Positions 14,476 to 41,562 of a DNA stretch of 64,000 bases are shown here, in pieces. The stretch is from Candidatus Saccharimonadota bacterium (GTDB lineage: Bacteria; Patescibacteriota; Saccharimonadia; Saccharimonadales; Saccharimonadaceae): NCBI GenBank assembly GCA_017431945.1, contig JAFRJZ010000026.1:1-64000 (forward strand). The letters run 5' to 3'. The position numbers and the translations under genes were made by a program. The notes below the pieces were generated by a model that was not told where the DNA came from, did no database searches, and saw nothing but the letters and a program-made list of their open reading frames with translations. The first letter of the stretch is position 1. Each line of letters starts with the position of its first letter.

Positions 14476-14865
14476 TCAAATTAGGCCAAAAATGTCAATT
14501 ATATTGCCTTTTTTCGTAATAAATAACATTCTTTTGATTTGTTTTTGCTCTCGACATTTTCGTATGAGAAATCTTTGAACTTTATCTTCTCGCATTTTTA
14601 TACGCGAAGCATCGATTATGATATTAGGAGATTGTTTTAACGCCCTACGAAGTATCTGTTCTATTGACGAGGTCTTTTTCGTTTCTGGTGACTTTAACTC
14701 ATATTCTGTCCCGTCAAGTAAGATATCTGGCGATTTTATGCTGATTTCTAGCAGAAACTCTACTTTGTATCCATTTATCGCCAAAATTTCTGCGACACGA
14801 AATTCGTGCGGCCAGGGTTTGTGTCCGGCTGAAATAATAATTTTACCTAATTTTTGATTTTTCAT
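14476..14865 (-). CDS. orphan CdiA-CT-like PD-(D/E)xK nuclease, paralog 1
   Basis: 129 aa from ATG 14865 (MKNQKLGKIIIS). A nuclease-like core is visible: His-Glu in WPHEFRVAEIL, SPDILLDGTEYELKSP (Asp then E-x-K, the PD-(D/E)xK pattern), and ALKQSPNIIIDASRI with a conserved Gln. This order resembles the CdiA C-terminal tRNase domain family, but the delivery part is absent, as is any neighbour looking like an immunity protein. Two paralogs lie at 21230-21613 and 38112-38504. The ATG is 7 nt after the -10, so the mRNA is leaderless; longer in-frame starts would read through the promoter. The function is inferred from the fold pattern only. Confidence 0.7.
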   Translation of the reverse strand: MKNQKLGKIIISAGHKPWPHEFRVAEILAINGYKVEFLLEISIKSPDILLDGTEYELKSPETKKTSSIEQILRRALKQSPNIIIDASRIKMREDKVQRFLIRKCREQKQIKRMLFITKKGNIIDIFGLI

Positions 14866-14872
14866 GTGTGGA

Positions 14873-14901
14873 GATGTAGCAAAAAGAGACCTAAAAAGCA
14901 A
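14873..14901 (-). promoter_or_regulatory. conserved leaderless promoter, copy 1
   Basis: TTGCTT (14896-14901), 17-bp spacer ending in TGC, TACATC (14873-14878), then 7 nt to the ATG. The spacer and upstream AGCTCTAGCTCGATATTTT pattern (minus-strand GAGCTAGAGCT) recur at the two paralogs and at 19849. Confidence 0.75.
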
Positions 14902-15001
14902 GCTCTAGCTCGATATTTTGTGGTACAGTGGGGGAGTATTCGGGAATACCCGCACCCCTTCTGTTAGGTTGGGGGATATTTTTATTTTTGTGTATTAAAA
15001 A

Positions 15002-17790: not shown

Positions 17791-19560
17791 CTAAGGTTGG
17801 CGGGGCTTTTTGCTGGCTTTACTATCAGCGGTGAGAAGATAGAGGTGATGCTTGGCGCGCGTGGTGGCGACGTAGTAAAGGCGGTGCTGATCTTCGCGGT
17901 TAGTGGTATGGTTGTCGCCAAAGATTTCAAAAAGGTTATTTTTAGGGTCGCTAAATAATATCTGGTTGTCGGCTTCGAGGATGATGATAACGTCAGCTTC
18001 GAGACCTTTGGAACGGTGGATGGTGAGCCAACTGATTTTTTGGTCAAATTCTGTGGCGGTAAGGATGTAGTTGTTGATGGCGACGGTTTTCAAAGCTTGG
18101 TGAAATTTAGACATCGTTAGTCCCGGATAAGAGGTAAAATTGTGACGGTGAAGTAAAAGAATTTGTCTAGCACGGCGGTGTTTTTTGATGATTTTGAGGG
18201 TGGATTTGAGGAGTTTGGCGGCGGCGGTAGGCGGAAGATTGATAGCGTTTGGTGGGTAGATTTCGTGTGCGAGCGCGTATTGAAACGCCGAATCGTGAAG
18301 TGCGTCACCCTTGATATCCTCGGTATCAAAACGGGTTTTAAGATAGTTAACCCGGTGGATTTTGCCGGATTTTTTACTAAAAGCAGTGATTTTGGCAGCG
18401 TTCTGACCGGTGGCGTTAATCATATATTCACTGGCGGTGTCGACAATTTTGCGGTCGCTGCGGTAATTAGTGATGAGGTTGATTTTATGAGCGTCCTCGG
18501 GGAAAAAGTCAGCAAAATTAAGGAAATAGGTGCAATCGGAGCCGGCAAAACGGTTAATCGCCTGCCAGTCGTCACCGACGGCAAAGAGATGAGCTTCAGG
18601 GCAGAGCTTGCGAAGTTGATTGACGAGGTTTAAAAATAGATAGGAAAAATCTTGATACTCGTCGATGAGAAGATGGCGCTTGGCTTGTAATACACGAATT
18701 AGCATGATAGTGCTTTTTCGGGTCGCGTCGGCGCGGCCCGTCTTCACGGGCGCGCCGCGCTCAGTCTGTCCGCGTCCCAAGGGGCGAACGGCAGCAGCCT
18801 GCGAAAGTCCCTCAAAAGCACTATCCATGCTAATTCTAGCGAGCCAGCCGGCGGCGTTGCTCATGAGGATATTGAAGTCGATTTTATCCTGCTTTTTAAG
18901 AGCTTGGCAGTATTCGCGATAGATAGGCAGGGCGAAGTCGTAAAATATTTTGGTTTGCGGGTCAGCGCTGTAATTACCGACAGCCTGAGTGAGTTTTCTA
19001 AAGCCAATCGCGCCAGGGTATTTTTGCTGAGTACGGTTGATAAACTGCGATACAAGGCTAAGAGTCTGAGCCTCGGCGGGAGTGGATGGTTGGAGGATGT
19101 GGGCGGTTTTTAATGGATTTTTAATCTTAGTGTGGCACCAAATGAGGGTTTGGAGGAGTTGGCTTCGGTCATCCTCGGAGATAATATGCGGCTTTTGACC
19201 GGCCTGTTTGAGCGTATCAAGAGCGAATTTATGAAAAGTGGTGGCGATACTGGGAGTTTCGGCGAGCAAAGGTGTGCCGTCGATTTTGACCTCAGTAAGG
19301 CGCTGGTTGATTTCGGCAGCAGCAGTACGGTTAAAGACAAAGGCCGAAATCTCCTCTGGCTTAATTCCCTCTTGATGGATAAGATAAGCAATCTTGGCGA
19401 CAATAATACGCGTCTTACCCGAACCGGCGCGCGCAGTCACTAGAGTATTCTTGTGGCTATCGCACACCGCCGCGGCCTGCTCCTTATCCAAAAAATATGA
19501 CTCACCGTGTAACGACACGTGCCGTTCAAACCATGCTTGAATTTCGCCTGGAATTGACAT
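17791..19560 (-). CDS. UvrD/Rep-family DNA helicase with in-frame palindromic insert
   Basis: ATP-dependent 3'-5' helicase of superfamily 1, about 589 aa. Walker A is TARAGSGKTRII, Walker B LLIDEYQDFSYLF, motif III GDDWQAINRFAG, motif IV/V LITNYRSDRKIV and TIHRSKGLEADVIIILEAD, motif VI YVATTRAKHHLYLL. It is smaller than UvrD/PcrA (~720 aa). I prefer ATG 19560; a TTG at 19575 is possible, and neither has a Shine-Dalgarno. Residues of about 240-285 (EGLSQAAAVRP...TRKSTIMLIRV) come from a family 1 palindromic element placed just before Walker B. The 5' side has a structured leader, a short ORF and an antisense promoter. Confidence 0.92.
   Translation of the reverse strand: MSIPGEIQAWFERHVSLHGESYFLDKEQAAAVCDSHKNTLVTARAGSGKTRIIVAKIAYLIHQEGIKPEEISAFVFNRTAAAEINQRLTEVKIDGTPLLAETPSIATTFHKFALDTLKQAGQKPHIISEDDRSQLLQTLIWCHTKIKNPLKTAHILQPSTPAEAQTLSLVSQFINRTQQKYPGAIGFRKLTQAVGNYSADPQTKIFYDFALPIYREYCQALKKQDKIDFNILMSNAAGWLARISMDSAFEGLSQAAAVRPLGRGQTERGAPVKTGRADATRKSTIMLIRVLQAKRHLLIDEYQDFSYLFLNLVNQLRKLCPEAHLFAVGDDWQAINRFAGSDCTYFLNFADFFPEDAHKINLITNYRSDRKIVDTASEYMINATGQNAAKITAFSKKSGKIHRVNYLKTRFDTEDIKGDALHDSAFQYALAHEIYPPNAINLPPTAAAKLLKSTLKIIKKHRRARQILLLHRHNFTSYPGLTMSKFHQALKTVAINNYILTATEFDQKISWLTIHRSKGLEADVIIILEADNQILFSDPKNNLFEIFGDNHTTNREDQHRLYYVATTRAKHHLYLLTADSKASKKPRQP
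18696..18836 (+). repeat. palindromic element family 1, copy in helicase gene
   Basis: Outer arms GAATTAGCATGATAGTGCTT (18696 on) and AAGCACTATCCATGCTAATTC (ending 18836) are complementary over about 22 nt with one bulge, and consist of helicase coding sequence. The core starts TCGGGTCGCG, contains the hairpin GGCCCGT-CTTC-ACGGGC and ends CCCTC. The frame stays open through the element. At 141 nt this is the longest copy. Confidence 0.9.
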
Positions 19561-19568
19561 AAACTTTA

Positions 19569-19597
19569 TTGACAATGATGGATTATTTTTATATAAT
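19569..19597 (+). promoter_or_regulatory. perfect consensus plus-strand promoter
   Basis: TTGACA (19569-19574), 17-bp spacer, TATAAT (19592-19597). It overlaps the helicase start region and points away from it. Confidence 0.85.
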
Positions 19598-19603
19598 TTA
19601 TAT

Positions 19604-19673
19604 TATTGAAAGGATTGCTAGATTATCCTTTCGTTGTGTTGTAGTCTAACCTTAATGGTTAGACTTTTCTTTT
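19604..19673 (+). ncRNA. candidate small RNA, antisense to the helicase leader
   Basis: From the expected start about 7 nt after the -10, about 70 nt contain a hairpin GAAAGGAT...ATCCTTTC (19608-19632) and an intrinsic terminator AGTCTAACC-TTAAT-GGTTAGACT with TTTTCTTTT (19643-19673). There is no ORF. It is complementary to the 5' leader of the helicase on the other strand. Promoter plus terminator make it a discrete transcription unit; the RNA itself is inferred. Confidence 0.6.
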
Positions 19674-19717
19674 GGTTTCTTGTCAAAATTGAGAATTATT
19701 AGTCCAATTTGAAGCAT
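19652..19717 (-). CDS. candidate 21-aa leader peptide upstream of the helicase
   Basis: ATG 19717 reads MLQIGLIILNFDKKPKEKSNH and stops at 19652. AGAAAGGAG lies 8 nt upstream, one of the better Shine-Dalgarno sequences nearby. The last codons lie in the 5' arm of AGTCTAACC/GGTTAGACT and the stop codon falls in its loop, a layout seen in translational attenuators. The helicase ATG is about 90 nt further on. It may be a regulatory leader peptide or chance; the length is too short for statistics. Confidence 0.4.
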   Translation of the reverse strand: MLQIGLIILNFDKKPKEKSNH

Positions 19718-19877
19718 AACAATTACTCCTTTCTGGTAGTCCTAGCCTATCTAGCATCAGCCTTTTTAGTGGACCCCCACCGACCCACAAACTACGACTA
19801 TGTTTGTGATTAAAGCCCACTAATCTCCAAAAGTACAACACGCGACGCAGTGTAGCAAAAAGACCGACAGAATTCAA
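19718..19877 (-). promoter_or_regulatory. conserved promoter copy 4 and structured leader
   Basis: TTGAAT (19872-19877), 17-bp spacer ending in TTTTTGC, TACACT (19849-19854): the same promoter type as the three nuclease genes, with the same GAGCTCAAGCTTG upstream. It is followed not by an ATG but by about 130 nt that can fold: TTAGTGG/CCACTAA closes a domain holding CACAAAC/GTTTGTG. A 21-aa ORF with a strong SD follows. Together with the ORF this fills the 19561-19911 gap between the helicase and tmk. Confidence 0.55.
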
Positions 19878-19911
19878 GCTTGAGCTCAATATTTTAAAAA
19901 GAAAATGATGT

Positions 19912-20514
19912 TTACAAAATAATTTGTTTGATTTCGGTGAAAATTTCTTCGATGGTACCAGAAGCGTCGATGATTTGGAGATTGAAATCTTTGGCAATGC
20001 GCGGATAAGCGGCGTTGACTTTTTGCTGAAAAGTGTCGGGCTTGGCTTCAAAAGTTTCAGTATCTTTACCGCGACCAGATTGGCGAGTAAGGCGAACTTC
20101 GTCTGGTACAGTGAGAATAAAGCCATAATCAGGTCGGAAATATTTTTCGGGTAATAAATCCTTAGTGATACGGATAATTTTGTTACGCGACACGCCTTCA
20201 CCATAACCTTGATAGGCCAGTGTTGACCAGTAATTGCGAGCTGATATGACGATGCCGCCGCGTTTTAGGACTGGCTCAGCGATTTTGTACCAAAGCTCCA
20301 CGCGGGCGGCCGTGAATAACAGGACATTGGTAATAGGCTCCAAGTGATAACCGCGAGACAAAATCATATCATGTAAATCATGCGCTTGAGGTAAGTCGCC
20401 GTCTGGCTCCTCGAGCATGACGACTTCTCTGCCTTGCTCCTTGAAATATTTTGTTAATAATTCGGCTTGAGTGGATTTGCCAGTACCGTCTTGGCCTTCG
20501 ATAACTATGTACAT
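19912..20514 (-). CDS. tmk: thymidylate (dTMP) kinase, copy 1
   Basis: Phosphorylates dTMP to dTDP, 200 aa from ATG 20514. P-loop IEGQDGTGKSTQAELL; LEEPDGDLPQAHD where EPGG is usual; ARNYWSTLAYQGYG in place of the DRYxxSslAYQG block. The lid shows RQSGRGKDTE. The tdk stop lies 2 nt before this start, so the two form a salvage operon. A second, very similar copy lies at 27616-28218 on the other strand. Confidence 0.93.
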   Translation of the reverse strand: MYIVIEGQDGTGKSTQAELLTKYFKEQGREVVMLEEPDGDLPQAHDLHDMILSRGYHLEPITNVLLFTAARVELWYKIAEPVLKRGGIVISARNYWSTLAYQGYGEGVSRNKIIRITKDLLPEKYFRPDYGFILTVPDEVRLTRQSGRGKDTETFEAKPDTFQQKVNAAYPRIAKDFNLQIIDASGTIEEIFTEIKQIIL

Positions 20515-20516
20515 CA

Positions 20517-21104
20517 CTAGACCTTTTCCAGATATTTTTGATAACAAGCCGGACAGAGTGCGCGATATTCAACTTTACTAGTGCCATCGTCAATTAAAAT
20601 ATCTGGACCGGTAGTGATAAGCTTATTATCGACAAAACGAACATTGCGAGTGGCTTTATGGCCGCATTCGCAGATGGTTTTGATTTCTTCGATATCATGA
20701 GCGATCTGCAATAAGCGCGTCGCGCCCTCAAAACCACCGTCGTTTTGACGAAAATTAAGGCGAAGTCCATAAGCTATAACGGGGATACTCAATTTGGTGG
20801 TGATTAGCATTAATTGGTCAGCCTGAATAGGAGTAAGAAATTGAGCCTCGTCGACCAGAACACAGTCGACCTTAGGGTAATTTTTACAAATTTCGTCATA
20901 TAAATTAGTTTTATGGCTGAAACAGAGGTCAGTTTCGCGTTCGGGACCGATACGAGTAAGTAATTTGGTACCGTTTTTGGTATCAATTTTAGGTTTGATC
21001 ACGCAGACTTGGTGACCTCGCTCCTCGTAATTGAAAGCGACCTGTAGAAGCTGCATAGTTTTGCCACATCCCATCGCGCCATAGCGAAAATATAACTTTG
21101 CCAT
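20517..21104 (-). CDS. tdk: thymidine kinase, copy 1
   Basis: TK1-type kinase making dTMP from thymidine, 195 aa. P-loop YFRYGAMGCGKTMQLLQ, DEAQFLTPIQADQL, the lasso region PVIAYGLRLNFR...GGFEGATRLL, and a zinc site CECGHKA with CPACY. The -10 TAAAAT (21111-21116) with extended TGC lies 6 nt before the ATG, so the mRNA looks leaderless. It is paired with tmk. The second copy is at 27026-27616. Confidence 0.94.
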   Translation of the reverse strand: MAKLYFRYGAMGCGKTMQLLQVAFNYEERGHQVCVIKPKIDTKNGTKLLTRIGPERETDLCFSHKTNLYDEICKNYPKVDCVLVDEAQFLTPIQADQLMLITTKLSIPVIAYGLRLNFRQNDGGFEGATRLLQIAHDIEEIKTICECGHKATRNVRFVDNKLITTGPDILIDDGTSKVEYRALCPACYQKYLEKV

Positions 21105-21157
21105 GTCTTTATTTTAGCATAGTTTATGGTTATAGTGTTGGCGGAAAATGAATTATC

Positions 21158-21229: not shown

Positions 21230-21613
21230 CTAGAATTCAAGTAGTCTATGATCTTTCGTAATAATTTTTAACTGCTTACAAGAATTAATTTGCTTGAAAC
21301 ACCTCTTAAGTTCTTTTATCGCAATCTCTTCTGGCATTTTTGATTTTGACAAATCTATAATTACATTTTCGGATTGCTTAGTAGCTTTTTTGATAATATG
21401 TTCCAAAGATATTTTACTTTTACCTTGCGGACTTTTCATCTCCCATTCTTTACCCGACATTATAAAATCTGGGGTTTTAGTCTTGGGACTATTGGATGGT
21501 GGTATGAGTTCTATATCGTAACCGAGATTAGTCAAGAATAGAATTGTATCGTATTCGTGTTTTTCTAGCTTTACGCCGTTGGGTTTAATCTTTCCTGATT
21601 TTTGATTTTTCAT
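21230..21613 (-). CDS. orphan CdiA-CT-like PD-(D/E)xK nuclease, paralog 2
   Basis: 127 aa from ATG 21613 (MKNQKSGKIKPN). It shares with paralogs 1 and 3 the start MKNQKxGKI, a His-Glu (KHEYDTILFL), TPDFIMSGKEWEMKSPQGK (Asp...E-x-K) and ATKQSENVIIDLSKSKM. It is the most divergent of the three in the N-terminal third and ends KIITKDHRLLEF. Leaderless: the ATG lies 7 nt after TACATT. There is no partner gene on either side. AT-rich compared with tdk-tmk next to it, which may point to transfer. Confidence 0.7.
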   Translation of the reverse strand: MKNQKSGKIKPNGVKLEKHEYDTILFLTNLGYDIELIPPSNSPKTKTPDFIMSGKEWEMKSPQGKSKISLEHIIKKATKQSENVIIDLSKSKMPEEIAIKELKRCFKQINSCKQLKIITKDHRLLEF

Positions 21614-21620
21614 ATGCGAG

Positions 21621-21649
21621 AATGTAACAAAATGAACCGTAAAATGCAA
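21621..21649 (-). promoter_or_regulatory. conserved leaderless promoter, copy 2
   Basis: TTGCAT (21644-21649), 17-bp spacer ending in TGT, TACATT (21621-21626), 7 nt to the ATG. Confidence 0.75.
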
Positions 21650-22212: not shown

Positions 22213-22276
22213 TCTAGAAGCTCATAACCTTTTACGGTTATTTTTACATTATATCACACTTATGCTATTTTGTCAA
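22213..22276 (-). promoter_or_regulatory. promoter-leader cassette, copy A
   Basis: TTGACA (22271-22276), 17-bp spacer containing TAGCATAAGTGTGA, TATAAT (22248-22253), leader hairpin ATAACC...GGTTAT (22224-22241) and GAGCTTCTAGA (22213-22223). Nearly identical cassettes lie at 23481-23545 and 26603-26666. Confidence 0.85.
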
Positions 22277-22378
22277 TAGCCAAAACATGTTTTACTGGGG
22301 TAGTGCAAAAAAACGGCCCTGGTCTATGCTAGACTGATATTCTGTAAGAAAAGGTTTTATGATAAAATAAAAGTGCTT

Positions 22379-23480: not shown

Positions 23481-23545
23481 TCTAGAAAGTGTATAACCTT
23501 TTATGGTTATGCTTACATTATATCACACTTATGCTAAAAAGTCAA
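23481..23545 (-). promoter_or_regulatory. promoter-leader cassette, copy B
   Basis: TTGACT (23540-23545), 17-bp spacer with TAGCATAAGTGTGA, TATAAT (23517-23522), leader hairpin ATAACC...GGTTAT and CACTTTCTAGA (23481-23491). Confidence 0.85.
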
Positions 23546-23559
23546 TAGGTAGAACATAT

Positions 23560-24285
23560 TTAACAGGGGTAATGTTGGCAGAAATAGCGGTAAAGCTCGT
23601 CGCAGAGCTTAGGGTCCATAGGGGGTTTGTCTTGATAAGGGCTAATGCGCCCGAGCTTGGCGTATTTATCGCTGCCAAGTTTGTGATAGGGGAGAAAATC
23701 TACCCGCTCGACATTTTCAAGATGCGTGCGTAGAAACTGGGCGAGGTCGCGCATGTACTGCTTGCTATCGTGAACCTCTGGTACCACGACTTGGCGAATC
23801 CAAACTGGTTTTTTGGACTGATTAAGGGCCTTGGTAAACTCCAAAAACCTGTCTAAATAGGCTTTGGAGGTGATTTCTTGATAACCATCTGGGGTGATGT
23901 GCTTGATATCAAGTAAAACTAAATCCACATTTTGCAAAATTTCATCGTAGCGCCCGAGGCCAATACCGGCGGTATCAAGAGCGATATGAACGCCTTCTTG
24001 ATGTAATTTTTTGCAAGTTTCTAGCAATAACAGAGGCTGTAAAAGTGGCTCGCCGCCCGAAAAAGTCACCCCGCCACCTCGCTTAAAATATGGCTTATTG
24101 CGGAGAACTTTTTTAACAATTTCATCCGGGGTAATATTATCTGGCTGGCGTTCCTGCATCTCGGGGTTGTGACAATACCGACAGCGTAGCATGCAGCCGT
24201 TCAGAAACACCACGGTGCGGATGCCGGGGCCATCGGTAAGACCGAAACTTTCGATTTCGGCGACCGAACCCTTACATGTGGTCAT
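23560..24285 (-). CDS. pflA: pyruvate formate-lyase activating enzyme
   Basis: Radical SAM enzyme that installs the glycyl radical on PflB, 241 aa. The cluster motif is [12 protein letters not shown] (C-x3-C-x2-C); [15 protein letters not shown] and DTAGIG follow. The start overlaps the 3' end of pflB by 14 nt, so the two are translationally coupled. The pair points to anaerobic conversion of pyruvate to acetyl-CoA and formate. Confidence 0.95.
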
Positions 24286-26509
24286 GGAAAGTGCGGTCGA
24301 TTACTTCTTGCTGTTGCTCAGGGGTAAGACGGTTGAAACGCACCGCGTAGCCAGATACGCGGATAGTCAAAAGCGGGTATTTCTCGGGGTGATTCTTGGC
24401 GTCGATTAAGGTTTCGCGATTTAGTACGTTGACATTGAGATGATGGGCGCCTTGCGAGAAATAGCCATCCATTAGTGCTACGAGATTTTCGGTGCGGTCT
24501 TCGATAGTAATGCCGAGCGACTGAGGGATGATAGAAAATGTATTTGAGATACCATCGCGACAACATTTGGCCCAGTCGAGCTTCGCTACAGAGTTCAGTG
24601 AGGCGATCGCACCACTCTTGTCGCGCCCGTGCATCGGATTCGCCCCTGGTGCAAACGGTACTTTAGCTTTGCGGCCATCAGGGGTGGCACCAGTATTGTG
24701 GCCATAAACAACATTAGAGGTAATAGTAAGTACCGACATCGTTGGTATTGCATCGCGATAACAGGGGTGAGAAGCAAGCTCGGCATAGAATTTTTCTAGT
24801 AACTCCTCTGCCATGTTATCCACGCGATCGTCATCGTTGCCATACTGGGGGTAATCGCCTTCGATTTTGAAATCTACTGCTAGGCCGTCTTTGTTGCGAA
24901 TAGGGGTGACTTTGGCATATCTGATGGCTGAGAGTGAATCGGTCGCTACTGAAAGCCCCGCAACGCCATAAGCCATAAGGCGCCTGACGTCGGTATCGTG
25001 GAGCGCCATCTGGCTGGCCTCGTAGGCGTATTTGTCGTGCATGTAGTGGATGATATTCATGGTCTGATTGTAAATACGTGCGACTTCTTTCAACACCTTA
25101 TGGTAGGCAGATTTGACTTGGCGATAATCCAGTACCGCATCAGTTGTGGGCTCAAAACCGGGCAAAACCGTCTCGCCAGTCATCTCATCTACGCCCCCGT
25201 TAATCGCGTACAATAAGGCCTTAGCTAGGTTACAACGAGCCCCAAAGAATTGCATATCTTTACCCTCACGCATCGCCGACACGCAACAAGCAATGGCATA
25301 ATCGTCGCCCATATGGGGTCGCATCACGTCGTCGTTTTCGTATTGAATAGAATCAGTATCAATGCTGACTTTGGCGCAGTATTCTTTCCAGGGAGTGGGG
25401 AGCTTTTCTGCCCAGAGGACGGTCATATTGGGCTCAGGGGAAGATTTGAGGTTTTCGAGGGTGTGAACGATACGGAATGAGGTTTTGGTAACAAGCGATT
25501 TGTGGCCGCTAGTGGTCAAACCACCTACCGAGCAAGTGACCCACGTCGGATCGCCGGAGAACAGTTCATCATAATCAGGGGTGCGCAAGTGTCTAACTGC
25601 GCGTAGTTTAATAACAAAATTATCGATGATCTCTTGGGCTTTGCGCTCATTTAACGTGCCCTCCCTAAAATCGCGCTCGAAGTAAATATCGAGAAACGCA
25701 TCGACACGCCCGAGGCTCATAGCGGCACCGTTGTTTTCCTTGACGGCGGCTAGATAAGCAAAATAAGTCCATTGTACGGCCTCTTTGGCATTTCTGGCGG
25801 GTCGAGAGATATCAAAGCCATAACTCTTGGCCATTTTTTTAATTTTGCCTAGTGCCTTATACTGCATAGCAATTTCTTCACGCAAGCGAATCGTGGCATC
25901 ATCCATCTGGTGAATTGGCATTTCGTCCCAATCTTTGCGTTTTTCTCGCATCAGAAAATCGATGCCATAAAGTGCCACACGGCGATAGTCGCCAATAATG
26001 CGACCGCGACCATAGCTATCGGGGAGACCGGTCAGAAGTTTGTTATGGCGAGCACGGCGAATTTCAGAGGTATAAGCGTCAAACACCCCGTCGTTGTGTG
26101 ATTTGAAAAGACCGGAATTAAGGAATTTCTTGAGGTTGGCGCCCATTTCGTAACCATAGATATCGAGCTCATTATAAACCATGCGAAGACCGCCCTTAGG
26201 GACGATACTGCGACGGCCGAGTTTGTCAGTCTGCAAACCAACGATGACATTGTCTTCTCTAGAAATATAGCCCGGCTCAAAAGCATCAACATCGGCTGGA
26301 TGTATGGTGTCGATATCGATAACGTGCTTTTTGATCTCTTTGCGATTCATTTTGTTGAAAATTTCTAGAAGTCGTAAAGTTTTAGGGGTGGGACCGGCAA
26401 GAAAATCTTCACCGCCACGGTATTCACGGTAATTTTGCTTGATAAAATTGCTTACGTCAACGGTGTTTGTCCATGTGCCGGCTTTAAAGCCACGCCAGCC
26501 TTCATACAT
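24272..26509 (-). CDS. pflB: formate C-acetyltransferase (pyruvate formate-lyase)
   Basis: Glycyl-radical enzyme: pyruvate + CoA gives acetyl-CoA + formate. 745 aa, full length. The catalytic cysteine pair is seen in [20 protein letters not shown] and the glycyl-radical site in [20 protein letters not shown], close to the C terminus HDHM. AGGAGG Shine-Dalgarno precedes the ATG; the promoter has an extended TGCTATAAT about 35 nt upstream. Oxygen-sensitive, so it indicates anaerobic or microaerobic life. Confidence 0.97.
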
Positions 26510-26602
26510 AGTGTACCTCCTAAAATGTTTATGTAGTTATTATAGCATAAAAATCATTAGCGTGTTTGAAATTATTTCACCTCTGTTAATATGTTCTTAT
26601 TA

Positions 26603-26666
26603 TTGACATTTTAGCATAAGTGTGATATAATGTAAGCATAACCGTAAAGGTTATGAGCTTTCTAGA
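26603..26666 (+). promoter_or_regulatory. promoter-leader cassette, copy C
   Basis: TTGACA (26603-26608), 17-bp spacer TTTTAGCATAAGTGTGA, TATAAT (26626-26631), leader hairpin ATAACC...GGTTAT and GAGCTTTCTAGA (26655-26666). The Shine-Dalgarno AGGGAGG follows. Confidence 0.88.
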
Positions 26667-26985: not shown

Positions 26986-27025
26986 CTTGGCTAAATTGTT
27001 GTTGAAGTTGTGTTACAATGAGGGT

Positions 27026-27616
27026 ATGGCAAAGTTATATTTTCGTTATGGGGCGATGGGATGTGGCAAAACGATGCAACTGTTACAGGTGGCATTTAAC
27101 TACGAAGAGCGCGGGCACCGAGTCTGCGTGATTAAACCACAAACCGATATCAAAAACGGCACTAAATTACTAACTCGTATCGGCCCCGAGCGCGAGACGG
27201 ATTTTTGTTTTGATCGCGAGACAAATTTGTATGAAGAAATACGAAAAAATTACGCCAAAGTTGACTGCGTCTTGGTAGATGAAGCGCAGTTTTTGACGCC
27301 AACGCAAGCCGACCAATTGATGTTGATTACGGTTAAACTTCATATTCCGGTAATTGCCTATGGATTGAGGTTAAACTTTCGCCTTAACGACGGCGGGTTT
27401 GAGGGGGCGACGAGGTTGTTGCAAATTGCTCATAATATCGAGGAACTCAAAACTATTTGCGAATGCGGCCACAAGGCGACCATCAACGCGCGGTTCGTAG
27501 ATGACAAACTAGCTACTAGTGGTCCCGATGTTTTGATTGATGGTACTGATAGCAAGGTTGAATACCGTGCGCTTTGCCCGGTTTGTTATGAGAAGCATCT
27601 TGAGGGGGTGCGCTGA
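27026..27616 (+). CDS. tdk: thymidine kinase, copy 2
   Basis: 196 aa from ATG 27026 (MAKLYFRYGAMGCGKT). Same P-loop, DEAQFLTPTQADQLM and zinc-site residues (CECGHKA, CPVCY) as copy 1, with scattered substitutions over the whole length. TACAAT with an extended TGT lies 6 nt before the ATG, so it is leaderless like copy 1; an upstream in-frame start at 26987 would lie before the promoter. The stop overlaps the tmk start as TGATG. Confidence 0.94.
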   Translation: MAKLYFRYGAMGCGKTMQLLQVAFNYEERGHRVCVIKPQTDIKNGTKLLTRIGPERETDFCFDRETNLYEEIRKNYAKVDCVLVDEAQFLTPTQADQLMLITVKLHIPVIAYGLRLNFRLNDGGFEGATRLLQIAHNIEELKTICECGHKATINARFVDDKLATSGPDVLIDGTDSKVEYRALCPVCYEKHLEGVR

Positions 27617-28218
27617 TGTATATAGTGATTGAAGGCCAAGATGGCACCGGCAAATCTACCCAAGCCGAGCTTTTGACTACATATTTCAAAAAACAAGGTA
27701 AAGAAGTGGTGATGCTAGAGGAGCCAGATGGTGATTTGCCGCAGGCGCATGATTTACATGATATGATTTTGGCGCGCGGCTATCAACTGGAGCCGATCAC
27801 TAATGTGTTGCTATTTACGGCGGCGCGAGTTGAGTTGTGGCGCAAAATTGCCGAGCCGGTATTGAAACGTGGTGGTATTGTGATTTCGGCGCGTAATTAT
27901 TGGTCGACGCTCGCCTATCAAGGTTATGGCGAGGGAGTGTCGCGGAATAAGATTATTCGCATCACTAAAGATTTGTTGCCTGAGAAATATTTCAAGCCTG
28001 ATTATGGGTTTATTTTGGTCGTGCCAGATGAAGTGCGTTTGAAGCGTCAATCGGGGCGTGGCAAAAATACTGAAACTTTTGAGGCCAAACCTGATGCTTT
28101 TCAGCAGAAGGTCAACGCCGCTTATCCACGCATTGCCAAAGATTTTGGTCTAACAGTTATTGACGCTTCGGGAACTATTGAGGAAATCTTTGCTGAAATT
28201 AAGCAACATTTAGTTTGA
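27616..28218 (+). CDS. tmk: thymidylate (dTMP) kinase, copy 2
   Basis: 200 aa, MYIVIEGQDGTGKSTQ. The same EEPDGDLPQAHDLHDMIL and ARNYWSTLAYQGYGEG blocks as copy 1, with few substitutions overall. It is coupled to tdk by a TGATG overlap and ends 3 nt from the convergent gatB stop. The pair 27026-28218 is inverted relative to 19912-21104. Confidence 0.93.
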   Translation: MYIVIEGQDGTGKSTQAELLTTYFKKQGKEVVMLEEPDGDLPQAHDLHDMILARGYQLEPITNVLLFTAARVELWRKIAEPVLKRGGIVISARNYWSTLAYQGYGEGVSRNKIIRITKDLLPEKYFKPDYGFILVVPDEVRLKRQSGRGKNTETFEAKPDAFQQKVNAAYPRIAKDFGLTVIDASGTIEEIFAEIKQHLV

Positions 28219-28221
28219 TAA

Positions 28222-29736
28222 TTATTTACTAAGTTTGGTGCGGAGGATTTGCTGGACGGCGGAAGGATTGGCTTGGCCGTGAGATTCTTTCATGACTTGA
28301 CCGACGAGAAAACCGATGACTTTATCTTGACCAGCCTTGAAGTCGGCTTGGGCTTTTTGGGTTTCGGGTTTAGCGAGCACAGTGTCGACGATTTTCTCGA
28401 GAGCAGCGGTGTCATTTTCTTGGATGACGCCGAGTTCTTTGGCGATGTCTTTAGTAGATTTGGTTTTCATCTGGGGGTCGAAGAATTTCAAGAAAACTTC
28501 TTTGGTAGCGGTAGAGCTGAGTTCTTTATCGGAATTCATCTTAACGAGGTCACGGAGTTGAGCTACAGAGGGTAAATCGTTCAGATACTCAGCGGATTTT
28601 TCTTCGGCTAGCAAGACTGACGCAAACAAATTCGCGACTTTTGAGATGATTTGAACATCCTTTCTCGGCACGCTCGCGACGCCCGCCGTCGCGGGGTCGC
28701 TCGCTGCTTCTCGTCGTGACTGCGAACGCGCCTCGAAAGGATGGTTCAAATCATCTAACTCTCCTAATTTTTCCATCAGCGGTTGGTAGTCGAGGAGGAT
28801 TTCGAGAGTGTCGTGAGGGATGGCGTCAGCGAAGCGGGCGCGGTAGTCGGATGGCAGTAACGGAAGTGCGGATTTTTCGGTAGCGATATATTCGTCGGAC
28901 AGATGAATCGGCGGAACATCGGGTTCGGGCATATAGCGGTAATCTTGAGCCTCTTCCTTGCTGCGTTGAGCGGTAGTCTTGCCAGTATCGTCACTCCAAC
29001 CGCGAGTTTCCTGTTTGACTTTTTCACCTTTATCTAGCAACTTGGACTGACGTTGGTATTCATATTCTACAGCACGTTCAACTGAGCGGAAAGAGTTAAG
29101 ATTCTTAATCTCGGCGCGTGTACCAAGTTCTTTCGCCCCTTCTGGCGCGAGTGAAATGTTGACATCAAAACGCATATTGCCGTTATAAAGATCACCATAA
29201 GTAACTCCAGCGTAAGTCATGATACGCCAGAGCTCTTTGCAATAATCGCGAGCGTGAGCGGCAGAATGGATGTCGGGCATGGAAACGATTTCAATCAACG
29301 GAGTGCCGGCACGATTTAAATCAACTAGCGAGTAACTGCCGAAATGGCTGAGTTTGCCAGCATCCTCCTCGAGATGGGCGTGTTCAATGCGTACTTTGGT
29401 GCCATCAGGAAGCTCAATAAAGCCAGCACCGATAATCGGCTGATAAAGTTGGGAAATCTGATAACCCTTAGGTAAATCTGGGTAATAATAGTGCTTGCGA
29501 TCAAAGCGAGAAATCGGATTAATCTCAGCGTTCATAGCGTGACCAGCACGCACAGCAAAGCGCACCGCTTCGGCATTTAAGCGTGGCAACATCCCCGGCA
29601 AAGCATAATCTACCGGCGACACGCAAGAGTTTGGCTCCTTACCGCGCGCGTCATTGTCAACCTCGCTAAATAATTTGGTCTTGGTGGCTAATTGGACATG
29701 ACATTCAATACCGATGGTAATTTCGTATTTACTCAT
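28222..29736 (-). CDS. gatB: Asp/Glu-tRNA amidotransferase subunit B, with in-frame palindromic insert
   Basis: GatB binds misacylated tRNA and, with GatA and GatC, makes Gln-tRNA (and Asn-tRNA) from Glu/Asp-tRNA. 504 aa. Seen: IGIECHVQLATKTKLFS, RFDRKHYYYPDLPKGYQISQ, LEEDAGKLSH, SLVDLNRAGTPLIEIVS and a YqeY-like C-terminal tail domain. Residues of about 326-365 (HPFEARSQSRREAASDPATA...VPRKDVQI) come from a family 1 element in the helical domain. Its start overlaps the upstream 139-aa gene by one base. Confidence 0.96.
   Translation of the reverse strand: MSKYEITIGIECHVQLATKTKLFSEVDNDARGKEPNSCVSPVDYALPGMLPRLNAEAVRFAVRAGHAMNAEINPISRFDRKHYYYPDLPKGYQISQLYQPIIGAGFIELPDGTKVRIEHAHLEEDAGKLSHFGSYSLVDLNRAGTPLIEIVSMPDIHSAAHARDYCKELWRIMTYAGVTYGDLYNGNMRFDVNISLAPEGAKELGTRAEIKNLNSFRSVERAVEYEYQRQSKLLDKGEKVKQETRGWSDDTGKTTAQRSKEEAQDYRYMPEPDVPPIHLSDEYIATEKSALPLLPSDYRARFADAIPHDTLEILLDYQPLMEKLGELDDLNHPFEARSQSRREAASDPATAGVASVPRKDVQIISKVANLFASVLLAEEKSAEYLNDLPSVAQLRDLVKMNSDKELSSTATKEVFLKFFDPQMKTKSTKDIAKELGVIQENDTAALEKIVDTVLAKPETQKAQADFKAGQDKVIGFLVGQVMKESHGQANPSAVQQILRTKLSK
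28644..28756 (+). repeat. palindromic element family 1, copy in gatB
   Basis: Arms AGATGATTTGAACATCCTTTC (28644 on) and GAAAGGATGGTTCAAATCATC (to 28755), complementary over about 21 nt with one bulge. Core TCGGCACGCTCG, hairpin CCCGC-CGTC-GCGGG (paired change relative to other copies), CGTCGTGACTGCGAACGC, GCCTC. The reading frame stays open. Confidence 0.9.
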
Positions 29737-38111: not shown

Positions 38112-38504
38112 TCAGATTAGAGTAGATATGTCAATTACTTTCCCTTGCTTAGTGACCAATAGGAGTTTTTTAATTTGTTTTCTTGAGCGCATTTGATTGA
38201 TAAGGAAGTTGCGAATTTTATCATTTTGGACTTTTTTAATACGAGATGTATCTATGATAATATTTTTAGATTGTCTTAATGCTTTTTTGATATTATGTTC
38301 TAGTGAATTGGCATTAGATGATTTTGGCGATTTTATTTCAAACTCAACTTCGTTTACTAAAATATCAGCTGAATGTAGGTTTCCTTCAGGTAGAAACTCA
38401 ACGCGATGCCCAGTTGATGCTAGAATTTCTGCGACACGAAATTCGTGTGACCAGGGTTTGCGTCCGGCTGAAATAATAATTTTACCTAATTTTTGATTTT
38501 TCAT
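38112..38504 (-). CDS. orphan CdiA-CT-like PD-(D/E)xK nuclease, paralog 3
   Basis: 130 aa from ATG 38504 (MKNQKLGKIIISAGRKPWSH). Closest to paralog 1: the first ~30 residues are almost identical, also at DNA level. SADILVNEVEFEIKSPKSS keeps Asp and E-x-K but has Ala for the Pro of the motif; ALRQSKNIIIDTSRIKKV follows. The C terminus KLLLVTKQGKVIDISTLI matches paralog 1. Leaderless, solitary, with its own promoter and terminator; a short palindromic element lies just upstream. Confidence 0.7.
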   Translation of the reverse strand: MKNQKLGKIIISAGRKPWSHEFRVAEILASTGHRVEFLPEGNLHSADILVNEVEFEIKSPKSSNANSLEHNIKKALRQSKNIIIDTSRIKKVQNDKIRNFLINQMRSRKQIKKLLLVTKQGKVIDISTLI

Positions 38505-38511
38505 ACGCGAA

Positions 38512-38540
38512 AATGTAGCAAAAAGAAATCTAAAAAGCAA
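38512..38540 (-). promoter_or_regulatory. conserved leaderless promoter, copy 3
   Basis: TTGCTT (38535-38540), 17-bp spacer ending in TGC, TACATT (38512-38517), 7 nt to the ATG. Upstream minus-strand GAGCTCAAGC is shared with the copy at 19872. Confidence 0.75.
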
Positions 38541-38581
38541 GCTTGAGCTCAATACTTTATGAAAAATTTTTAAGAATGACG

Positions 38582-38655
38582 GAAGGCGAATGATGGGGGT
38601 TTGTGGGTGACTTGAACTAATAAATACTCACAAAACCCCCATTACCTCGCCCTTC
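38582..38655 (+). repeat. palindromic element family 3, short form
   Basis: Arms GAAGGCGAATGATGGGGGTT (38583 on) and AACCCCCATTACCTCGCCCTTC (to 38655) pair over about 23 nt with small mismatches. The core GTGACTTGAACTAATAAATACTC keeps both ends of the family 3 core but lacks the central hairpin. The right arm ends at the stop codon of the surface-protein fragment. Confidence 0.75.
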
Positions 38656-39129
38656 TAAGACCCAGCTATACAACGTAATGAGAAGCCGTAAGACTTACTG
38701 CCGTAGTTTGACGGGCTGAAACTGCTAGCGTAGAAGTACAGTTGGTACGCGCGGTTACTAGTGTTGGCGGTACGCGACCAATAGCGGGTGAATTTACTCC
38801 TATCGTAGATCGAACCGCTGGCGTAGCCGGAATAGAGGAAGTTATTGGGATAATGGCGGAAACTGGCAGTTTTGGTGGTTGCGGAGGTAGTATCCATGGT
38901 ACTAGCAAGATAGCCAAAAGAGCCCGCAGTACTAGTAGTATTACTAATTGGCAAAGACCAGTTATAAGGGCAGATAGAGCCAGTAGTAGCACCCGATGAA
39001 GGATTACGGCCAGCGGTAGCAGTGTACCAAGGATAATAGACACCATAAGAGTAAATGTTATCGTTTTCAGAGGTTGGATTGGATGCAGGGGAGGCAATAT
39101 TATCGTTGCGAAGAGCGTTAGTGGTGGTA
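38655..39129 (-). pseudogene. 3' fragment of a FISUMP-type surface protein
   Basis: The frame codes for about 155 aa with the marks of the FISUMP / C-type-lectin-like domain common in CPR surface proteins: VYYPWYTATAG, GSICPYNWSLP, RYWSRTANTSNRAYQLYFYA and the C-terminal YGFSLRCIAGS. Signal peptide and N-terminal domains are missing. The coding sequence begins directly at the leuS stop codon, and the only upstream ATG (39209) lies inside leuS in another frame. It therefore looks like a fragment joined to leuS by recombination; expression by read-through re-initiation cannot be excluded. Confidence 0.7.
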
Positions 39130-41562
39130 CTAGATGACGATGTTGATGAGGTGGGCCTTACTAGGAATAATAATTTTCTTAGGCTTACCCGTGACGAATT
39201 TTTGGACATTAGGGTCGTTTAGGGCCAGGTCGGTGATTTTTTCGGCGTCGTGGATTTCGCTGAGGGGGATTTGGAGGCGCGAGCGGAGTTTGCCGTTGAC
39301 TTGAATGACAAATTCAACGGTGTCAGCAACGAGATATTTGGCGTCATAAGTCGGCCAAGTGTCGTCGGCATCTAAGTACTCTAACATTTCGCAAGCAAGA
39401 TGAGGAGCAAAGGGTTTGAGGAGCTTAGCGAGCGCGATTAAATCTTCCTTTTCGGGAGTGGTCTTATAAAGCTCATTGACATACTCCATGAGAGCCGCGA
39501 CGGCGGTGTTGAACGACTGGCGCCCTAGATCGTCGGTGACTTTTTTGATGGTTTTGTGGCGGACAGAAATGGTAATATGGTCTTCTTCGGGACGCTCCTC
39601 GGGCCTGTCGTCACAGGCCTCGTCGCTGCGTCCTCGTCGTAACTGCGGATGCCCCTCAGAAGACATATTACCCATTTCTGCCTCACCGCCAAAGCATAAA
39701 CTCCAGCAACGATTTAGGAAGCGGTGGACGCCGCCGATGGCGTGGGGGTTCCAAGTAGCGTCTAGTTCATAAGGGCCGATAAACATCTCATAAGTACGGA
39801 GAGTGTCGGCGCCATAGCCACTATTGACAACCTCTAGCGGATCAACGACATTGCCTTTGCTTTTGCTCATCTTCTTGCCATCTGGGGCATTAATATAACC
39901 GTTATATAATAACTTTTTAATTGGCTCGCGGAAGGGTAAGTAGCCTTGGTCGGCAAAGAATTTACACCAAAAACGAATATAAAGTAGGTGCGCTACCGCG
40001 TGGTCGGCGCCACAATAAATATCAAGTGGTTCCCAATATTTGATGGCGTCAGGATCCCAAGCGTGTTTGTCGTCGTGTGGGCTGGCATAACGCCAAAGAT
40101 ACCAACTAGAGCAGGCGTAGCCGTCCAAAGTGTCAGTTTCGCGCGTCATTTCCTCACCGTCAATTTTAACTTTGAGCCAGTCCTTAGCCTTGGCGAGGGC
40201 ACTGTGGCCGGTATTGTCGGGCTGGTAATCTTCGACTTCAGGAATCATGACCGGTAATTGGTCTTCGGGGATGGGGTGAGGATTACCATCTTTGTCATAA
40301 GCGATAGGAATCGGGCAACCCCAATAGCGTTGACGCGAAATCAGCCAATCGCGCATGCGATAATTGATTTTCTTTTCGCCAAATTTATCAAAATCACAGA
40401 AGTCGGCTTCAACGATAGGTAGATCAAACTTTTCGGCAAATTCGCGGTCGCGCTCATCATAAGCTGGCACTGCCATGATAGCGCCAGTACCATAACCCAT
40501 TAATACATAGTCGGAAATCCAGATAGGGATTTGCTCTTTGGTGGCGGGGTTAATGGCATAACTGCCAGTGAAAACGCCGGTTTTTTGTTTGTTTTCTTGA
40601 CGTTCGATTTCGGATTTTTTCAAAGACTCGGTGCGGTATTTGTCAACTTGTTGGCGGGTTTTTTCATTGACTAATTTGGAAACTAATGGATGTTCGGGGG
40701 CGAGAACTAAGAATGTCGCACCGTAAATGGTGTCGGGCCTAGTGGTGAATACTGAGATATACGGCGCAGGGCCTGCCGCCACATGTTCCCCCACCGTGCT
40801 CACTTCGTTGCGCGCGGCGGGGGTCCCCCAAGTGGCGTCACCCGCGCCTGTATTAGCAACCTCAAAATCAATCACGGCGCCTTCACTGCGGCCGATCCAG
40901 TTTTTTTGCATTACCTTGATCTTGTCGGGCCAGTCGAGAGAGTCAATGTCGTTTAATAATTCATCAGCGTAGGCGGTGATTTTGAAGAACCATTGTTTCA
41001 TTTTTTTCTTTTCAACTTCGTGGCCACAGCGCCAGCAACGACCGTTCTCAACCTGCTCGTTAGCAAGTACGGTCTGGTCTACTGGGCACCACCACTGATA
41101 CGATTCTTTTTGGTAGGCTAGGCCCTTTTTGTAGAGTTGCAAGAAACACCATTGAGTCCAGCGGTAATATTCGGGATCAGAAGTATTGATTTCGCGTGAC
41201 CAGTCAATAGCAAAGCCGAGAGTTTTGGCTTGATTGCGGAAATTATCAATATTGGTCTTGGTAGCGGACTGGGGTGAGATGCCGGTTTTGATGGCATAAT
41301 TCTCGGCTGGTAAGCCAAAAGTGTCATAACCAAAGGGGCGTAAAACATTTAAACCTTTTTGGGCATAATAACGAGCGAGGACATCTACGATCGTAAAATT
41401 GCGCACATGACCGACATGAAGCCCAGCACCGCTGGGGTATGGAAACATCTCGGCGAGGAACATTTTGTCTTTTTTGCTATCCTCAGTAGCCTTAAAGGCC
41501 TCGGTATCGGCCCAAATTTTTTGCCATTTTTGCTCAATTTTTAACGGATCGTATCTATTCAT
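39130..41562 (-). CDS. leuS: leucyl-tRNA synthetase with two in-frame palindromic inserts
   Basis: Charges tRNA-Leu, 810 aa. HIGH motif in FPYPSGAGLHVGHVRN, KMSKS in DGKKMSKSKGNVVDPLE, and a complete C-terminal domain ending KAHLINIVI. Two foreign segments are read in frame: a family 2 element (VANTGAGDATWGTPAARNEV...AAGPAPYI) before VFTTRPDTIYG at the start of the editing domain, and a family 1 element (MSSEGHPQLRRGRSDEACDD...EEDH) in the anticodon-binding domain before ISVRHKTIKKVTDD. Leaderless: TATAAT (41570-41575) lies 7 nt before the ATG. Confidence 0.97.
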   Translation of the reverse strand: MNRYDPLKIEQKWQKIWADTEAFKATEDSKKDKMFLAEMFPYPSGAGLHVGHVRNFTIVDVLARYYAQKGLNVLRPFGYDTFGLPAENYAIKTGISPQSATKTNIDNFRNQAKTLGFAIDWSREINTSDPEYYRWTQWCFLQLYKKGLAYQKESYQWWCPVDQTVLANEQVENGRCWRCGHEVEKKKMKQWFFKITAYADELLNDIDSLDWPDKIKVMQKNWIGRSEGAVIDFEVANTGAGDATWGTPAARNEVSTVGEHVAAGPAPYISVFTTRPDTIYGATFLVLAPEHPLVSKLVNEKTRQQVDKYRTESLKKSEIERQENKQKTGVFTGSYAINPATKEQIPIWISDYVLMGYGTGAIMAVPAYDERDREFAEKFDLPIVEADFCDFDKFGEKKINYRMRDWLISRQRYWGCPIPIAYDKDGNPHPIPEDQLPVMIPEVEDYQPDNTGHSALAKAKDWLKVKIDGEEMTRETDTLDGYACSSWYLWRYASPHDDKHAWDPDAIKYWEPLDIYCGADHAVAHLLYIRFWCKFFADQGYLPFREPIKKLLYNGYINAPDGKKMSKSKGNVVDPLEVVNSGYGADTLRTYEMFIGPYELDATWNPHAIGGVHRFLNRCWSLCFGGEAEMGNMSSEGHPQLRRGRSDEACDDRPEERPEEDHITISVRHKTIKKVTDDLGRQSFNTAVAALMEYVNELYKTTPEKEDLIALAKLLKPFAPHLACEMLEYLDADDTWPTYDAKYLVADTVEFVIQVNGKLRSRLQIPLSEIHDAEKITDLALNDPNVQKFVTGKPKKIIIPSKAHLINIVI
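39564..39680 (+). repeat. palindromic element family 1, copy in leuS
   Basis: Arms CAGAAATGGTAATATGGTCT (39564 on) and AGACATATTACCCATTTCTG (to 39680), complementary over about 22 nt with single-base bulges. Core TCGGGACGCTCC, hairpin GGCCTGT-CGTC-ACAGGCC (T-A pair where other copies have C-G), CGTCGTAACTGCGGATGC, CCCTC. Confidence 0.92.
40757..40853 (+). repeat. palindromic element family 2, copy in leuS
   Basis: Arms ATATACGGCGCAGGG (40757 on) and CCCGCGCCTGTAT (to 40853), complementary with bulges. Core GCCTGCCGCCACATGTTCCC, inner hairpin CCCCACCGTGCTCACTTCG.../...GCGGCGGGGG, TCCCCCAAGTGGCGTCACCC. The inner loop GTGCTCACTTCGTTGCGCGC is identical to the copy at 60496. The frame stays open. 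Confidence 0.88.

Follow-up and report, generated by a model that had tools for sequence, protein, structure and literature searches.

What does a short RNA do that would be transcribed from a perfect promoter directly ahead of a helicase gene, on the opposite strand? The locus lies in the genome of a Candidatus Saccharimonadota bacterium, within a stretch of 64,000 nt that was analysed as a whole and is called the window here. Saccharibacteria are ultra-small parasitic bacteria. A sequence-only reading had described the promoter, two hairpins behind it, the second an intrinsic terminator, and an RNA without an ORF, and had regarded the whole as a compact antisense module directed against the leader of the helicase mRNA. 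This anatomy is correct, and the module is indeed compact and antisense: the RNA is complementary to the hairpin region that ends a conserved 21-aa ORF on the minus strand. Judged by their sequences, this small gene and the RNA opposite form a self-contained unit, which looks like an undescribed putative toxin with an RNA antidote and not like a helicase switch.

The antisense RNA and the peptide gene

The elements of the plus-strand RNA are as follows.

19569 to 19597, plus strand: antisense (antitoxin-like) promoter TTGACA-17-TATAAT, an exact match, at the same place in all four copies in this genome and, in relatives, included in the stretch that the covariance model matches (model positions 1-114).
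19604 to 19673, plus strand: predicted antisense RNA of ~70 nt, its 5' end placed from the -10 box, its structure from the fold z-score and covariation.
19608 to 19632, both strands: hairpin 1, the 5' hairpin of the antisense RNA and, read on the minus strand, a hairpin in the 3'UTR of the peptide mRNA, with a conserved CUAG loop.
19643 to 19665, both strands: hairpin 2, the intrinsic terminator of the plus-strand RNA and, on the minus strand, the last codons and the stop codon of the peptide gene.

In the promoter, TTGACA (19569-19574), the 17-nt spacer and TATAAT (19592-19597) are all exact. As the window holds six exact TTGACA-16 to 18-TATAAT promoters, it is not special in itself, just a strong promoter of the housekeeping type. 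Consensus-like promoters followed directly by a small hairpin (ATAACC...GGTTAT), 84-92% alike, also occur at 22231-22291, 23500-23560 and 26588-26648, as a conserved 5'UTR element. For the 70-nt RNA the folding energy is -22 kcal/mol (z = -5.4), a value equalled by none of 200 shuffled sequences. Hairpin 2 reads AGTCTAACC-TTAAT-GGTTAGACT and is followed by TTTCTTTT; the peptide stop codon lies within its loop in the window copy and, across the family, within the antisense terminator stem or next to it. Most relatives have a U-rich tract behind hairpin 1 on the minus strand, and in most copies this hairpin is probably what terminates the peptide mRNA; the sense terminator of the window copy is weak, being without a good U-run. 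The plus-strand RNA carries no ORF of its own, and what is conserved is the 21-aa ORF opposite, which belongs to the following minus-strand features.

19876 to 19891, both strands: motif AAGCTTGAGCTCAATA upstream of the peptide promoter, exact at 38539-38554 and degenerate at 14900-14915, also in the C6, C9 and C26 modules.
19849 to 19877, minus strand: predicted peptide promoter TTGAAT-17-TACACT with extended TG, recognised from sequence and conserved in the four copies in this genome.
19827 to 19841, minus strand: mRNA 5'-end region GUGUUGUACUUUUGG, near the predicted 5' end, the 5' strand of the 5'-3' long-range helix.
19766 to 19824, minus strand: leader helix AUUAGUGG/CCACUAA (19817-19824 with 19766-19772).
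19749 to 19756, minus strand: leader segment UGCUAGAU, a perfect complement of the 3'UTR hairpin-1 loop AUCUAGCA (19616-19623).
19726 to 19734, minus strand: Shine-Dalgarno sequence AGAAAGGAG, recognised from sequence, with a similar one before nearly every homologue.
19652 to 19717, minus strand: 21-aa peptide gene, putative toxin, MLQIGLIILNFDKKPKEKSNH, conserved in C9, in a family of 54 distinct peptides and by dN/dS.
19669 to 19675, minus strand: CCAAAAG in the 3' part of the ORF, pairing with CUUUUGG of the mRNA 5' end (19827-19833).
19636 to 19642, minus strand: ACAACAC, the linker of the two hairpins and the complement of GUGUUGU (19835-19841) at the predicted 5' end of the mRNA, with a swap test and minimum-energy folds in support.

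The predicted peptide promoter is weaker than the antisense promoter. The 60 modules examined in detail encode 54 distinct peptides of 20-32 aa, every one with a net positive charge (+1 to +8, mean +5.3) and with an N-terminal half more hydrophobic than the C-terminal half, which is basic. At ~10 residues the hydrophobic stretch is short for a classical transmembrane helix, and some of the peptides have an alternating, beta-type look. Their coding sequence is constrained. In the MTIQINLLCIIF group (24 distinct sequences), compared over the first 14 codons and so outside the antisense overlap, pS is 0.584 and pN 0.179 (dN/dS = 0.18); for the window's own peptide type (10 sequences), the values are 0.855 and 0.201. 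No such synonymous excess appears in the other reading frames, and this purifying selection identifies the 21-aa ORF as a real gene. Near the end of the peptide, 130 of 185 lysine codons are AAA, the complement of the U-tract of the antisense terminator, so that one piece of DNA serves both. Profile searches with the peptides in Pfam, NCBIfam and PHROGs, a weak test for sequences this short, gave no family and one spurious match (E = 0.056), and the antisense RNA had no match at gathering in Rfam, the best chance match being at E = 5.

The leader of the peptide mRNA, from ~19844 to the start codon, is conserved across modules. Six of the eight predicted pairs of its helix show changes on both sides among 24 leaders, and all 24 aligned leaders contain CUAG, whose flanks co-vary with the hairpin-1 loop. 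Three stretches of the mRNA are complementary over a long range. The 5' GUGUUGU matches the linker ACAACAC, the counterpart in most relatives being GGGUUG with CAACCC. CUUUUGG matches CCAAAAG near the end of the ORF, with the variants CUUCGG/CCGAAG and CUUUGG/CCAAAG. A leader segment of the form N-CUAG-N matches the hairpin-1 loop, as GCUAGA/UCUAGC in the window copy, UCUAGG/CCUAGA in most others and CCUAGU/ACUAGG in L039. When partners were swapped between modules, without regard to relatedness, the swapped duplexes were as good in energy as the modules' own in 0, 0 and 1 of 10000 cases for the three pairings, respectively. In the minimum-energy folds of all six mRNAs folded, a helix brings the two ends together around hairpin 2, so that a 5'-3' long-distance pairing like that of hok and aapA is present in predicted folds as well as in the complementarity. 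Masking of the Shine-Dalgarno sequence by this helix is unsupported by simple folding, its predicted unpaired probability being 0.33 in the full-length and 0.35 in the 3'-trimmed mRNA.

Copies, relatives and genomic neighbours

The unit spans 19566-19908 and has three further copies elsewhere in this genome, next to alaS, an ABC transporter gene and prfB. A search of the genome with 19540-19930 as query returned a 78% identical stretch just upstream of alaS (C9:438-780) and shorter matches in C6, in C26 and at 38.5 kb of the window. Sequence reading was used to tell full from decayed copies: C26 lies upstream of the ABC transporter gene, C6 upstream of prfB, and the match at 38.5 kb is the promoter motif only, before a CdiA_C gene. 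All four copies retain the plus-strand promoter, the two hairpins and the UGUUGU linker. Among three paralogues (the window copy, C9 and C26), 11 of 19 hairpin pairs have changed on both sides and the stems stay paired. The C9 and C26 peptides are MFQIGLIILNFGKKPKEKSNR and MTIHIELNIFNFKGWHRRRSQDSQSKSSLAE; of the C6 peptide only ...NIFNFKGWRRHRSKDGQSKNLVA is left, the leader, Shine-Dalgarno sequence and start codon being deleted.

The motif AAGCTTGAGCTCAATA, which contains the nested palindromes TTGAGCTCAA and CAAGCTTG, lies at the -35 region both in the peptide modules and in two of three CdiA_C-type genes, and a regulator common to both is possible. These three genes (14476-14901, 21230-21649 and 38112-38552, all on the minus strand) are paralogues of ~130 aa; of these, 21230-21649 and 38112-38552 were tested, and both match Pfam CdiA_C (PF18451). 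Their start codons lie ~7 nt past the -10 box, and their mRNAs are probably leaderless. Lipoprotein genes of the Fibrobacter-major-paralogous type, named from sequence (L006 1-225, L007 59-1438, L008 1655-3001 and window 38655-39209), adjoin three of the four peptide modules of the genome and one CdiA_C gene. A longer pattern of the sense promoter motif was found in none of 146 other genomes sampled from the genus; as the motif is thus specific to this genome, covariance models were used for the relatives instead.

The first of these models, of the antisense RNA, was built from three copies with C6 left out and matched 26 of 197 relatives, all in the same genus. Covariation of the two hairpins in relatives, the check that the sequence-only reading had proposed, is clear, and together with the paralogue comparison it speaks most strongly against a chance structure. 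In a re-alignment of 40 distinct homologues, 94% of cells are paired, all 19 pairs show changes on both sides, and the covariation score is 0.907 against 0.242 +/- 0.016 for shuffled and at most 0.191 for slid partners. This alignment was fitted to the model and leans toward the structure, but the slid and shuffled controls agree with the result from the three paralogues. A second model matched 83 of 147 genomes of the genus, with 1-8 copies each, ~40% of the sampled genomes being without a match at the cut-off used. In the family it matched 27 of 199 genomes, in 8 of 61 sampled genera, and a phylum sample of 287 genomes gave nothing credible beyond the family. One phylum-wide match (G431/L127, E = 4e-4) has neither leader nor peptide and was taken as chance, and the weak matches L040 and L054 were dropped on the same grounds. 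The genus includes a record of Candidatus Nanosyncoccus alces, and other members are rumen or gut Saccharibacteria genomes. The leader pattern is absent from IMG/VR, so there is no sign of carriage by phages. In two relatives, three antisense RNA copies lie on one contig, within 3.1 kb (G053:C28 9564-12643) or 30 kb (G103:C3 41780-70980), which suggests local duplication.

Several copies per genome (up to eight), clusters and degenerate copies are also what a non-autonomous mobile repeat would display, its hairpins and ORF having no cellular function. This explanation is extremely improbable in view of the dN/dS of 0.18 and the compensatory changes in every stem pair; moreover, the promoters are retained, the long-range pairs co-vary and no terminal inverted repeats are seen in the alignments.

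Might the module nevertheless serve the gene next to it? As a control of the helicase through pairing with its 5' leader would require, the start of the RNA lies ~45 nt ahead of the helicase start codon, on the other strand, and the RNA would be complementary to any transcript running from the tmk side into the helicase. In relatives, the neighbours are recJ-, topA-, polIV- and dnaE-like, MFS and lipoprotein genes (named from sequence), on either strand. Helicase homologues, found in 7 of 29 relatives sampled, have no such RNA nearby, and many module-bearing genomes lack a helicase match. Since the module adjoins unrelated genes in both orientations and the helicases of relatives do without it, the link with the helicase is accidental. 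The small ORF is the conserved partner, and the helicase leader as the target is contradicted by this genomic context; the antisense character of the RNA stands, directed at the end of the 21-aa ORF. Helicase control is accordingly a highly improbable explanation. Much the same evidence bears on the suggestion that the ORF encodes a leader peptide and that hairpin 2 attenuates the gene behind it (helicase, alaS or prfB). All four units of this genome are co-directional with the next gene, as an attenuator would be, but in relatives the gene that follows often lies on the other strand and is unrelated in function. In addition, the peptide sequence itself is constrained and has no run of regulatory codons, and the terminator U-tract belongs to the plus strand: ACAACAC, and no run of U's, comes after hairpin 2 on the minus strand. 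We consider attenuation very unlikely.

A thymidine kinase-thymidylate kinase gene pair is duplicated in the window (19900-21119 and 27011-28230, 75% identity), and the two inverted pairs enclose a pyruvate formate-lyase gene (24272-26509) and that for its activase.

One-sided decay

If the peptide is harmful to the cell that makes it, the antisense RNA should outlive the peptide, and never the reverse. A separate model of the leader was applied to the 147 genomes; the loci used to build it came from the antisense model, which brings some sample bias, but the scan itself did not require an antisense RNA. It gave 99 leader matches. Downstream of 91 of them, in nearly all cases at a distance of 44-68 nt, is an antisense match on the opposite strand. 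Three of the other eight lie at contig ends. The remaining five seemed to be leader-only loci and were rejected as such, since the antisense RNA is present once the filters of the search are off. There is thus no assessable leader without an antisense RNA (96/96). Conversely, about ten antisense RNAs lie beside a dead or missing peptide gene, most of them with a recognisable antisense promoter. The peptide gene is dead by deletion in C6, by a change of ATG to ATA in L052 and by a stop after seven codons in L017; L016, L031, L036, L044, L073 and L076 are further antisense RNAs beside a broken or missing one. Among the assessable loci the antisense RNA outlives the peptide and not the reverse, which is what self-toxicity predicts.

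This asymmetry also bears on whether the peptide is directed outwards. It could be made on demand against other cells, as an antimicrobial or host-directed product of an episymbiont, and be kept off by the antisense RNA, without being an addiction or stress toxin inside the cell. The peptides are small, cationic and partly hydrophobic. Cultured Saccharibacteria are described as epibiotic parasites of other bacteria (PMC8080830), and some type I toxins, SprA1 among them, lyse other cells if supplied from outside (PMC8309996). However, no export signal and no secretion or immunity gene is seen in the module, and an antisense RNA persisting beside a dead peptide gene fits self-toxicity better, so that we regard an outward-acting peptide as unlikely.

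The locus is, with good probability, a chromosomal type I toxin-antitoxin-like module. A small protein gene faces an antisense RNA that overlaps its predicted mRNA; the peptide has fewer than 60 aa, is hydrophobic with a charged end (the hydrophobic stretch being short) and is under coding constraint; and all assessable leaders come with the antisense RNA, about ten loci having the antisense RNA only. The module can be pictured as working in the following way. The minus strand would give an mRNA of ~240 nt encoding the 21-aa peptide, which is hydrophobic in its N-terminal and basic in its C-terminal half, and the plus strand, from its stronger promoter, a ~70-nt antisense RNA lying over the 3' end of this mRNA (last codons, stop codon, linker and 3'UTR hairpin). 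Both hairpins would serve both strands: hairpin 2 would end the antisense RNA and hold the last part of the ORF, and in most copies hairpin 1 would probably terminate the mRNA. Pairing of the mRNA's own 3' end with its 5' end and leader loop would give, we infer, a poorly translated form. An antisense duplex at the 3' end may then block folding or activation, or route the mRNA to RNase III. Were the antisense RNA lost, the peptide would be made and would probably act on the cell's own membrane.

Known type I systems and significance

In hok/Sok, the ends of the toxin mRNA pair with each other, and the antisense RNA has a separate strong promoter. The module shares with it an mRNA closed, by prediction, through end pairing (compared in PMC6733600) and the separate strong antisense promoter. 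It differs in that no mok-like overlapping leader ORF was identified, the peptide is much shorter, and the antisense RNA lies at the 3', not the 5', side. Like the module, txpA/ratA and bsrG/SR4 of Bacillus have a toxin mRNA and an antisense RNA that converge and overlap at their 3' ends (PMC4147584) and a small peptide with a basic C-terminus. RatA, however, spares the coding region, whereas the overlap in the module, ~70 nt, reaches into the last codons and the stop codon; the peptides have 20-32 aa against 59 aa for TxpA, and the module is without an Rfam, Pfam or NCBIfam match. With Fst/RNA I-RNA II (par of pAD1) the module has in common converging RNAs with common hairpin/terminator DNA at their 3' ends (PMC4147584). 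In contrast to that system, no DRa/DRb direct-repeat pair was noticed and the antisense overlap enters the coding region, and the PxxxG motif of Fst/Ldr is absent from the peptides.

The aapA/IsoA systems of Helicobacter pylori resemble the module in having several copies per chromosome, a 30-aa peptide and an 80-nt antisense RNA (PMC6733600), as well as a 5'-3' long-distance interaction in the toxin mRNA (PMC6733600) and a positively charged C-terminus. IsoA3, however, forms an 80-bp duplex with the 3'-truncated mRNA, whereas the antisense RNA of the module covers the 3' end of the ORF and the 3'UTR; the 5'-3' helix of the module encloses hairpin 2, and masking of the Shine-Dalgarno sequence by it is not predicted. 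By analogy, the module would work like txpA/ratA, through 3' overlap, and it is similar to aapA/IsoA in the number of copies, the size of the peptide and the folding of the mRNA. It matches no described type I family.

A 2025 paper names Proteobacteria, Firmicutes and Tenericutes as the only phyla in which type I toxin-antitoxin systems were known, and it adds the first cyanobacterial case (PMC12390103). A literature search found no type I system for Saccharibacteria or the candidate phyla radiation. We lean towards the broader view that the modules are a type I family native to Saccharibacteria (Patescibacteria). Its marks would be two dual-strand hairpins, an antisense terminator U-tract that in reverse encodes the lysine tail of the toxin, and an mRNA whose two ends close around the antisense target; the family would multiply within genomes, its copies diversifying to their own antisense specificity. 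A covariance model can find such loci through RNA covariation and not through similarity to known toxins. With a lineage-wide family present in 1-8 copies in genomes of just ~0.7 Mb, one may ask what use reduced epibionts make of toxins.
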